Shown piece after piece: positions 51,642-54,804 of a stretch of 64,000 bases of DNA (the stretch's first letter is position 1; every line of letters starts with the position of its first letter). The stretch covers positions 2,822,501 to 2,886,500 of the forward strand of contig NZ_CP056030.1 of NCBI RefSeq assembly GCF_013374995.1, in the 5' to 3' direction. The translations under genes were made by a program, and so were the position numbers. Source of the DNA: Pseudomonas eucalypticola. GTDB taxonomy: Bacteria; Pseudomonadota; Gammaproteobacteria; Pseudomonadales; Pseudomonadaceae. A model generated the notes under the pieces. That model was not told the origin of the DNA and ran no database searches. It worked only from the letters and a program-made list of their open reading frames with translations.

Positions 51642-52517
51642 CTAGACGATGGAGTGCCCCAGTACGTCGATGATGCGTTGGGCGATGTGCTCCACATGGG
51701 TCTCCAGGGCAAAGTGCCCGGTATCCAGCAGCTCCACGTGGGCATTGGGGTTGTCCCGGCGGTAGGCCTCGGCACCGGGCGGAATGAAGAACGGGTCGCC
51801 CTTGCCCCAGATCACCAGGGTCGGCACCTGGGTGTCGCGGAAGAACTGCTGGAACGCCGGGTAAAGCGTGAGGTTGTTGCGGTAGTCATAGAACAGGTCC
51901 AGCTGGATCTGCTTGTTGCCAGGGCGTTCCATCAGCAGCGCATCCAGGTAATAGCCTTCGGGGGCGATCTGCTCGGGGTCGCTGACGCCCTCCACGTATT
52001 GCCAGCGGGTGGCTTCCAGGTTCAGCACGTTGTCGTGCACGGCCTGGCGGTGTTGCGCCGTAGGCTCGGCCCAGTAATCCCGAATGGGCGCCCAGGCATC
52101 GCCCAGGCCTTCCAGGTAGGCGTTGCCGTTCTGCGACACCAGCGCGGTGACCCGTTCCGGGTGGGCCAGGGCCAGGCGCAGACCGGTAGGGGCGCCATAG
52201 TCGAACACATACAGCGCGTAGCGTTGCAGGCCCAGGGCTTCGACGAAAGCCTCCAGGGTCTTGGCCAGGTTGTCGAAGCTGTAGACGTAGTCGCGTTCGG
52301 CTGGCACCTGGGTGAAACCAAAGCCGGGCAGGTCCGGGGCAATCACCCGGTAGTGAGGAGCCAGCAGGGGGATCAGCGTGCGGAACTGGTGGGATGAACT
52401 GGGATAGCCATGCAGCAGCAACAGCACCGGTGCATCGGGCTGGCCTGCTTCGCGGTAGAAAACGTTGACGCCATCGGCGTCGACACGGTGGAAGTGGACG
52501 CGGGGAACAGTGCTCAT
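51642..52517 (-). CDS. Haloalkane dehalogenase/epoxide hydrolase-like alpha/beta hydrolase
   Basis: A 291-residue alpha/beta hydrolase with aspartate as nucleophile in VFDYGAPTGLRLA, the oxyanion HGYPSSSHQFR and the catalytic His in DTGHFALETH. Asp nucleophile plus HGYPSSS is typical of the dehalogenase/epoxide hydrolase branch common in pseudomonads, with substrate unknown. AGGAG precedes ATG 52517. It is divergent from a CGNR-domain regulator across a promoter with a striking array of inverted repeats, suggesting direct control. Confidence 0.85.
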   Translation of the reverse strand: MSTVPRVHFHRVDADGVNVFYREAGQPDAPVLLLLHGYPSSSHQFRTLIPLLAPHYRVIAPDLPGFGFTQVPAERDYVYSFDNLAKTLEAFVEALGLQRYALYVFDYGAPTGLRLALAHPERVTALVSQNGNAYLEGLGDAWAPIRDYWAEPTAQHRQAVHDNVLNLEATRWQYVEGVSDPEQIAPEGYYLDALLMERPGNKQIQLDLFYDYRNNLTLYPAFQQFFRDTQVPTLVIWGKGDPFFIPPGAEAYRRDNPNAHVELLDTGHFALETHVEHIAQRIIDVLGHSIV

Positions 52518-52529
52518 GTGGGGGGCTCC

Positions 52530-52614
52530 TGTAACTGGGTAAGTTGTTATTGCCGGTTACAGCTCTATTTGCTCAGGCCTGGTGTAACTAGTCAAATTAT
52601 TTTTATAGGTTACA
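52530..52614. promoter_or_regulatory. Four-element TGTAAC/GTTACA operator array
   Basis: Two copies of TGTAAC-N20-GTTACA occupy this divergent promoter: 52530-52535 with 52556-52561, and 52583-52588 with 52609-52614. Consecutive half-sites are 26, 27 and 26 bp apart. The arms extend imperfectly (CTGTAACTGG against CCGGTTACAG). The array is very likely an operator for the CGNR-domain protein encoded immediately to the right. Confidence 0.75.
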
Positions 52615-52645
52615 ATGTGCGGACACCTGTCAGGAGAGGCTGTTG

Positions 52646-53218
52646 ATGAGCGCTGAAACCCCCGCCCCCTTGGTGCTGGCCGACCACCCGGTGCTGGACC
52701 TGCTCAACACCCGCATGATGGTTGAAGGGCATCGCCAGGATCTGCTGACCGACGGCGTTCAGGCGGTGGAGTGGTTGCACAGGGTTGGCCTGCCGCTGGA
52801 GGACGTGGGCGGCGAGGCGGATCGTCAGCGCTTGCTCGAGCAGCTGCGCACGTTGCGTGACGTGATCGAACCGCTGGTGCTGGCGCGCGGGCAGGGCATC
52901 GTGGCTGACCCGCAGGGCTTGAACGGCTTTCTACGCAACGCGGTGGTCCAACTGATGTGGACCCAGGAGCAGGGGGTGGTGCTGGACCGCAGCCATGACC
53001 CCGACCCGGTGACACGGTGCATCAGCCAATTGGCGTTGGAGGCGGCCACATTGCTGGCCGAGGGCGATTTCACGCTGGTGCGCCAATGCGAAAGCCACGA
53101 CTGTACGCTGATGTTCTACGACCGCACCAAGTCGCACAAACGCCGCTGGTGCAGCATGGCCGTGTGCGGCAACCGCCACAAGGTGACGGAGTTTCGCAAG
53201 CGGCGCCAGGGACTGTAG
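52646..53218 (+). CDS. CGNR zinc-finger domain regulator (ABATE family)
   Basis: A 190-residue protein with an N-terminal ABATE domain (LADHPVLDLLNTRMM near the start) and a C-terminal CGNR zinc finger. The Zn ligands are in RQCESHDCTLMFYD and RRWCSMAVCGNRHKV, a C-x4-C...C-x4-C arrangement ending in the name-giving CGNR. Such proteins are thought to be DNA-binding regulators. AGGAG lies about nine bases before ATG 52646. It is divergent from the dehalogenase-like gene. Confidence 0.87.
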   Translation: MSAETPAPLVLADHPVLDLLNTRMMVEGHRQDLLTDGVQAVEWLHRVGLPLEDVGGEADRQRLLEQLRTLRDVIEPLVLARGQGIVADPQGLNGFLRNAVVQLMWTQEQGVVLDRSHDPDPVTRCISQLALEAATLLAEGDFTLVRQCESHDCTLMFYDRTKSHKRRWCSMAVCGNRHKVTEFRKRRQGL

Positions 53219-53259: not shown

Positions 53260-54423
53260 TTACCCCTCGCTCAATTCCGCCCGTGAACCCATGCGCCAGG
53301 CACTGCCCACTGCCGTGCACACGAACACCCCTGCGGCCACTGACAACGCCAACGGCAAGCCGACGTTCGAGGCTTGCATCAACCCGCCGCTGACCACCGG
53401 CCCCAGTACGCTGCCCAGGCCGAACAGCATGCCGGCGCCGGCATTGGCGGTCACCAGGTCATGGCCGCGGAAGCGTTGGCCGATCAGGACGATGGCCAGG
53501 GTATAGGTGCCGCCCGCCGCTGCACCCAGCAAGAACAATACGGGCCACAACACCGGGTTGCCACCCATCAACCACGCCAGGCTGGCGCCGATGGCCAACA
53601 CGCACACGCCACAGGCCAGGTGCAGGGCGGTGCGTGGCACGCGGTCGGCCAGCCAGCCCAGGGGCAGTTGCAGGCACATGTCGCCCAGCAGGATGACGCT
53701 GACCATCAGCGCGGCTTCGGCGGGGCCGAAGCCGTTGTCGGCGGCATAGACCGGAAACAGCGCCAGGATCACGCTGTCGAAGAACGAGAAGAACAACACG
53801 CCCATGCACAGGGTGGGCGCCAGCCGCACGAAGCCCAACAGGGAAAAACGGCGGGGGGCGTGGTGTTCCTCCTCGCGGCCGCGGCCATTGGGCAGGCCGA
53901 ACAGGCTCAGGCATGCGAGCCCCAGGGCGACACTCGCGCAGCTGACCACGTAGGGGCCAGTGGTGCCCAGCAGGGAAATCAGCAGCGGCCCGAGCATCTG
54001 GCTGCCGGTGTAGGCAGTGGTGTAAACGGCGATGGACTGGCCGCGGCGCTGGTCGCTGCACAGTTCGTTGATCCAGGCTTCACTGAGGATGATCACCACG
54101 CCCATGCCCAGCCCCATGGCCAGACGCAGCCCGGCCAGGGCGTACAGCGAGTCACGCAATGGTTCAAGCAAGGCGACGCTGGCCAGGCACAGCGCCAGGC
54201 AGGCCTGGAACAACTGGCGGCGGTTGAAACGTCGGGTCAGCGCGGCGCACAGGCTGGCGGCGAGCATCATGCCGACGGCGGGCAAGGCCGAGAGGATACC
54301 GATCTGCGCGGCACTGGCGCCGGTGTCGAGCAAGCGCAGGGCGGTGAGGGGGGCGGTGGCGCCCAGGCATATGCCGGCCACGGCGGCGACAAACAGCAGA
54401 ACAGGCAGGGTCAGGCGATTCAT
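53260..54423 (-). CDS. MFS transporter (YcaD-like)
   Basis: A 387-residue MFS permease with 12 predicted helices. LSEAWINELCSDQRRGQSIAVYTTAY between helices 4 and 5 and PLGWLADRVPRTALHLA between helices 8 and 9 are typical of the YcaD subgroup. Substrate is unknown. The start at 54423 begins MNRLTLPVLLFVAAVAGICLG; the long upstream extension is Arg/Pro-rich and unlikely to be translated. Confidence 0.85.
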   Translation of the reverse strand: MNRLTLPVLLFVAAVAGICLGATAPLTALRLLDTGASAAQIGILSALPAVGMMLAASLCAALTRRFNRRQLFQACLALCLASVALLEPLRDSLYALAGLRLAMGLGMGVVIILSEAWINELCSDQRRGQSIAVYTTAYTGSQMLGPLLISLLGTTGPYVVSCASVALGLACLSLFGLPNGRGREEEHHAPRRFSLLGFVRLAPTLCMGVLFFSFFDSVILALFPVYAADNGFGPAEAALMVSVILLGDMCLQLPLGWLADRVPRTALHLACGVCVLAIGASLAWLMGGNPVLWPVLFLLGAAAGGTYTLAIVLIGQRFRGHDLVTANAGAGMLFGLGSVLGPVVSGGLMQASNVGLPLALSVAAGVFVCTAVGSAWRMGSRAELSEG

Positions 54424-54804
54424 GTGAGATCCACGCGGGCAAATCAACGGCGCGCGCAAGATCACTGCGTGCGTCACGGGGCCAACCGAGGCTGGCCGGA
54501 AGATCAGGCGTGGGAAGCGGGCGGCGAGAAAGTGAACGCGAACAGCACGCTGCGGCGACGGCTGAGGCCAGCGTCGGTCATGCAGGGGGGCATTGCCTGG
54601 AAGGGGTGGTGGGCACGAGGCATGTGCAAAGTGATCCGCAATACAGGCGCGCACTGTAGGCCACCGGGGCAGTGGTGGTCAATACTGCTAGCAAACGATA
54701 CGCTAACGGGCGCCATGCTCTCCCGGTGGCACAGGTGGTCTTCAGAATTGGCTTGCCTCGGACCCTGGCGGCTAGCCGCTTATTTTTTCAAGGTGCAAGG
54801 TTTC
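54424..54804. other. Intergenic region between divergent MFS and Rieske genes
   Basis: A 381-bp divergent promoter region. No gene with a ribosome-binding site was found. The part near the Rieske gene is comparatively A/T-rich (around 54661-54720, and TATTTTTTCAAGG before the start), suggesting its promoter. No palindrome stood out. Confidence 0.4.

Follow-up and report, generated by a model that had tools for sequence, protein, structure and literature searches.

Conserved palindromes between a CGNR/ABATE gene and a divergent hydrolase gene of Pseudomonas eucalypticola as probable operators of the CGNR/ABATE protein

The divergent promoter region between a gene for a CGNR/ABATE zinc-finger protein and a gene for an alpha/beta hydrolase was analyzed in a 64,000-nucleotide stretch of the Pseudomonas eucalypticola genome (contig NZ_CP056030.1, positions 2,822,501 to 2,886,500), called the window in the following. 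The CGNR gene is located on the plus strand (52646..53218; start codon ATG at 52646, AGGAG at 52632-52636) and encodes 190 amino acids, the hydrolase gene is located on the minus strand (51642..52517) and encodes 291 amino acids, and the gap between them comprises 128 base pairs (bp; 52518..52645). It harbors two palindromes without strand, the only exact copies of TGTAAC-N20-GTTACA in the window: P1 at 52530..52561, 13-44 bp upstream of the hydrolase start codon, and P2 (TGTAACTAGTCAAAT...TTTTTATAGGTTACA) at 52583..52614. In 100 dinucleotide shuffles, no match to this pattern was obtained. The centres are 53 bp apart and the half-sites start at 52530, 52556, 52583 and 52609, in steps of 26, 27 and 26 bp, exactly as described in an original prediction made from this DNA. 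P2 lies within the putative CGNR promoter and overlaps a promoter-like pair, TAGTCA-16-TACAAT (52589..52616, plus strand), which was identified by consensus match only. P1 shares its first base with the AGGAG ribosome-binding site of the hydrolase gene read from the sequence (minus strand, 52526-52530).

Both Pfam domains of the CGNR protein are found above their cut-offs, namely ABATE (PF07336; 60.5 bits, cut-off 24.4) and zf-CGNR (PF11706; 64.7 bits, cut-off 24), and its closest named homologues are from Pseudomonas. In an alignment of 55 rows, the four zinc cysteines C148, C153, C169 and C174 as well as G175 are invariant, and N176 and R177 are nearly so. The AlphaFold2 monomer model reached a pLDDT (predicted local distance difference test) of 90.7, and fold searches with it returned a single clear match, 3h0n, indicating that the protein is predicted to share this fold. 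The matched protein, Jann_2411, represents the founding structure with ABATE and CGNR domains; the part of its report consulted considers a dimer likely and proposes a DNA-binding, ligand-sensing dimer, and it gives no DNA site (PMC2954205).

The divergent enzyme was originally described as a dehalogenase-like hydrolase, of which the position beside the palindromes holds and the name is not supported. It shares the alpha/beta hydrolase fold and the Asp nucleophile motif (FDYG) with the haloalkane dehalogenase/epoxide hydrolase superfamily, and this motif aligns to DhaA-type structures. However, its score with the best NCBIfam model, that for haloalkane dehalogenase, is 99.1 bits where the cut-off is 241, and HGYP and FDYG replace HGNP and HDWG, so that Tyr stands in place of both the halide-binding Asn and Trp. 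Judged by its sequence, "dehalogenase-like" is a fold-level label only.

The palindromes are very probably autorepressor operators of the CGNR/ABATE protein, which would also control the divergent hydrolase gene. Each 32-bp palindrome would be bound by a dimer of the protein encoded at 52646-53218. Since P2 covers the protein's own putative promoter, self-repression is proposed, and occupation of P1, just upstream of the hydrolase gene, would repress the hydrolase. A small molecule that the hydrolase handles, or one related to this enzyme, would then occupy the ABATE domain and thereby free the protein from the DNA. A palindrome over the regulator's own predicted promoter is the arrangement expected of a local self-repressor with a divergent target. 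TetR and QacR are self-repressing divergent regulators, and the likeness to them comprises a divergent promoter with palindromic operators, a regulator adjoining its target, and sites over the promoter. Unlike these, the window protein has no helix-turn-helix by Pfam and carries an ABATE domain and a treble-clef zinc finger instead, and its half-sites are separated by a long spacer of 20-21 bp.

The sites are rare in their own genome. A scan of the 6,401,699 bases (2 contigs) revealed no TGTAAC-N18..22-GTTACA beyond P1 and P2, and no further CGNR match was found. When two mismatches were tolerated, the pattern matched 11 times forward and 12 times in reverse, P1 and P2 included, versus 17 and 14 for the reversed pattern, so no wider regulon was found in this genome; six of these places have one common sequence, presumably 16S ribosomal RNA. 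Only weak peaks emerged when perfect 7-bp inverted repeats were searched for irrespective of their sequence.

Conservation was analyzed in a set of 199 genomes of the genus. Homologues of the window protein are present in 28 of them, the own genome included (expectation value, E, of 1e-20 or better), and all 28 carry at least one TAAC-N20/21-GTTA upstream (shuffle mean 0.22). With one mismatch permitted across ten core bases, 67 palindromes were found at these loci, one to three per locus, with an inner spacer of 20 in 45 and of 21 in 22 (L039 being a repeat of L025). Two or more palindromes are present at all 27 loci in which a hydrolase gene adjoins the regulator gene, as would be expected from the claim that the half-sites are conserved wherever the gene pair is. 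When seven gaps of the window type were aligned, the majority of invariant columns fell within P1 and P2, P2 being the better conserved; the left GTAAC of P1 is kept in all seven and its right GTTAC in six, the altered arm being that of L007. At the side of the CGNR gene, the right arm tends to form a -10-like hexamer: TACNAT, made of GTTAC followed by NAT, occurs in 19 of the 28 loci versus 1/28 among the other exact palindromes.

The spacing between palindromes behaves differently. In the 27 loci with two or three palindromes the inter-palindrome gap ranges from 11 to 27 bp, and centre-to-centre distances in relatives are 53, 54-57, 41.5 or 43.5-46.5 bp. As the gap varies in this way, the unit is the single palindrome, and the 26/27/26 step is a local feature. 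The regular geometry, which the original prediction had taken as meaningful, was therefore rejected as a functional ruler: the gap of 23 bp found in the window occurs in only 3 of the 28 loci, L005 and L011 being the matching relatives.

The sites also follow the CGNR gene across the genus. A stricter core pattern, GTAACYNGTCAA-N12..14-GTTAC, gave 24 rows corresponding to 23 distinct sites in 21 of the 199 genomes, and the reversed control pattern gave 5. All 21 belong to the 46 genomes bearing a CGNR gene, versus none of the 153 without a CGNR match (Fisher p 6e-16), and 22 of the 23 sites are located less than 1 kilobase (kb) from a CGNR gene. A CGNR subfamily that had escaped the protein search at E 1e-20 is marked by two sites in genome G100 and one in G167.

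The hydrolase alone does not account for this distribution. It is present in 54 of the 199 genomes at E 1e-70 (60 matches). Among the best 30 of the 60 matches, two or three palindromes are present at each of the 20 that adjoin a CGNR gene, and none of the 10 without a CGNR gene within the 1.5 kb flanks has any (p 3e-8); seven of these ten lie in genomes without any CGNR match. The neighbours of five palindrome-free copies examined by Pfam (L203, L222, L225, L227, L228) are LysR genes in three cases, a short-chain dehydrogenase/reductase (SDR) gene in one and an Ada gene in one, and because CGNR-free copies adjoin such genes the regulator of the hydrolase may have been exchanged between lineages. 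Two genomes in which the genes are separated are informative. In G066 the regulator gene has one palindrome and no hydrolase gene within 1.5 kb, and a related hydrolase gene about 30 kb away bears two. G449 belongs to the same class and to a different family; here, the CGNR gene carries one palindrome, and a 75% identical hydrolase located about 7 kb from it bears a palindrome too. Control in trans predicts such sites at hydrolases that are separated from the regulator.

Beyond the genus, TAAC-N20/21-GTTA was found upstream of CGNR genes of other Pseudomonadota in 32 of 48 rows or 31 of 47 distinct places, L059 and L068 being one place (shuffle mean 0.14; the 108-residue match G366 and the own-genome row are excluded). 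Across 299 genomes of the phylum, a lax pattern matched 39 sites, which are distributed over 35 genomes; 21 are within 1 kb of a CGNR match, two are the G449 sites, and the remaining 16 may be background, because the reversed control also matches often.

A shorter form of the site in actinobacteria and some alphaproteobacteria was suggested by 16 plasmid loci, hand-picked from the 100 matches listed (223 and 195 records matched), which scored as 4 long, 4 short, 2 doubtful short and 6 none. It was then analyzed in 80 further loci, mostly from Actinomycetota; these are interrelated and represent the best 80 of 577 confirmed loci, and one (L120) is 95% identical to a plasmid locus. AAC-N11-GTT occurs in 49 of the 80, followed by a gap of 2 with 22, a count that may arise from within the same motif (AACCAGTT), and by at most 9 for any other gap up to 44. 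At least 11 of 14 matches to TGTAACC-N9-GGTTACA are reached in 52 of the 80 loci (shuffle mean 0.2 per gap); this form is about one helical turn shorter than the palindrome of the genus. In 30 genomes, hand-picked mostly for loci already having sites, the exact short pattern was found at 10 places, each in a different genome; 9 of these places are located at the CGNR gene, and the reversed control gave none. In a FastTree phylogeny with 172 rows, 4 changes suffice to explain the 63 long and 57 short labels, versus a mean of 40 after shuffling; this count omits 52 rows without a clear label, several long branches are flagged, and near-copies favour clustering.

The architecture of the short form was analyzed in 57 sites scoring at least 10 of 14, with start codons assigned by script and by eye (that of L106 is approximate). 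In 43 of them the start codon directly follows GGTTAC, and in 45 the hexamer before GGTTAC has A at position 2 and T at position 6, TATAGT being the commonest (22). This suggests a leaderless promoter inside the operator. As a separate observation, many actinobacterial CGNR genes (L120-L199) appear to be leaderless and carry TATAGT-GGTTAC-ATG or a similar sequence at their start.

A candidate for the contact to the half-site was obtained from covariation. By mutual information, the second Arg of the RRWC motif (Arg167), whose place is taken by Gln in the alignment of Jann_2411, ties as best partner for the G of TGTAAC. Of the 172 rows 146 were usable, and by count the link is strong: both half-sites have the G in 106 of 127 rows with Arg or Lys at residue 167, versus 1 of 19 with other residues. 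Where a site was found, Leu goes with TCTAAC (8 rows) and Ala or Thr with TATAAC or a near variant (4 rows), and Lys, and once Glu, pair with G. The residue changes only 4 times on the tree, which leaves a test of independent pairs without power, and the link between Arg167 and the G is suggestive, not proven. Among paralogues of one pseudomonadotal family (f44), we also noted TCTAAC half-sites with RLWC for RRWC (L055, L056, L058, L065-L067, L072, L074) and TATAAC with RAWC or RTWC (L048, L053, L057, L070).

Taken jointly, these data tip slightly towards a shared half-site, TGTAACY, in CGNR/ABATE proteins, which would be read by the treble-clef finger with Arg167 touching the G. The spacing would be lineage-specific, with AAC and GTT separated by N11 in actinobacteria versus N20-21 in Pseudomonas and many other Pseudomonadota, a difference of about one helical turn, and the short-form operator would be built into a leaderless promoter, TATAGT-GGTTAC-ATG.

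Several points weigh against operators of the CGNR protein as described here. The strict pattern is missing from 25 of the 46 CGNR-bearing genomes of the genus, some of which have variant sites and others different CGNR subfamilies, and no site was found by the criteria above in 16 of the 48 rows from other Pseudomonadota and in 28 of the 80 further loci. Three of the ten palindrome-free hydrolases (G020, G022, G121) occur in genomes with a CGNR gene elsewhere, the promoters are consensus matches only, and certain CGNR/ABATE proteins are labelled "predicted RNA-binding Zn ribbon-like protein" in one source.

With regard to the mode of action, the protein might bind the palindromes as an activator, or activate the hydrolase gene while repressing its own. 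The third palindrome at 12 of the 28 genus loci speaks for this, as the layout around the two start sites varies by lineage. We nevertheless regard activation as unlikely, since the -10-like hexamers in the CGNR-proximal sites (19/28 in the genus, 45/57 in the short form) represent a layout typical of repressors; operators placed over such hexamers, and P1 ending on the hydrolase ribosome-binding site, suit repression. That a different host regulator binds the palindromes, with the CGNR gene as a mere target, has room because the binder was deduced from sequence, but it is very unlikely in view of the 153 CGNR-free genomes without a core site, the ten hydrolases without adjacent CGNR gene and without palindromes, and a half-site that accompanies CGNR genes into another phylum with different neighbours. 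The four evenly spaced half-sites could also form one array for a cooperative filament that needs a step of 26-27 bp, as seen in the window and matched by the equal palindrome spacing in L005 and L011; the variable gap between palindromes beside a fixed inner spacer makes this highly improbable. Finally, repeats acting as RNA hairpins, in line with the RNA-binding names of some family members and with pairing on the CGNR strand at positions 1-5 nearly always, at 6 as G-U in 38/67 and at 8, 11 and 12 mostly, are very unlikely. Pair 6 is mismatched in 4/67 and each of its G-U pairs turns into A-C in the transcript of the hydrolase strand, mismatches prevail at pairs 7 and 10 (42/67 and 52/67), which does not favour a hairpin on both strands, and a short-form transcript starting directly after GGTTAC would be leaderless and not contain the hairpin.

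Binding of the palindromes by the CGNR protein thus finds strong support in conservation, co-distribution, the two genomes with separated genes and the half-site at other CGNR genes, and this part of the original prediction stands, without its array spacing. DNA sites for this family appear to be essentially undescribed, as had been stated: none is reported in the titles and abstract openings of the literature searched, a scope outside which most subscription papers fall. CGNR/ABATE proteins are found in many Pseudomonadota and Actinomycetota, yet just one structure was matched (3h0n). This poorly understood family would gain a testable DNA target, with a defined operator as gel-shift probe, and the operator predicts targets per genome, which are the own gene, epoxide-hydrolase-like enzymes and, in one genome, a transporter. 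For comparison and for sensor building, a zinc-finger repressor lacking a known helix-turn-helix would become available, and two spacings on one half-site would show evolutionary re-spacing of a dimer. If the shared half-site is true, an orphan family would turn out to be a large class of local repressors whose code can be read.

Further observations concern neighbouring genes and other loci. In the window, a gene judged from its sequence to resemble transporters of the major facilitator superfamily (MFS) is located at 53260-54654, convergent towards the CGNR gene and without an exact palindrome. In G100 (L061:1501-1531, L063:1501-1531) both genes have the same orientation, with the hydrolase gene downstream of the CGNR gene, and a separate palindrome is present at each of the two. 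A second CGNR gene of G167 (L062:1501-2189) has a nearly symmetric palindrome and a divergent neighbour that looks dehydrogenase-like by eye. An MFS transporter gene of G449, about 25 kb from the CGNR gene, carries its own CGNR-type palindrome (L255:1567-1597) and is a possible further target. In a Streptomyces genome, an exact TGTAACC-N9-GGTTACA (L256; G502:C1:4021391-4021413) is located about 26 kb from the CGNR gene.
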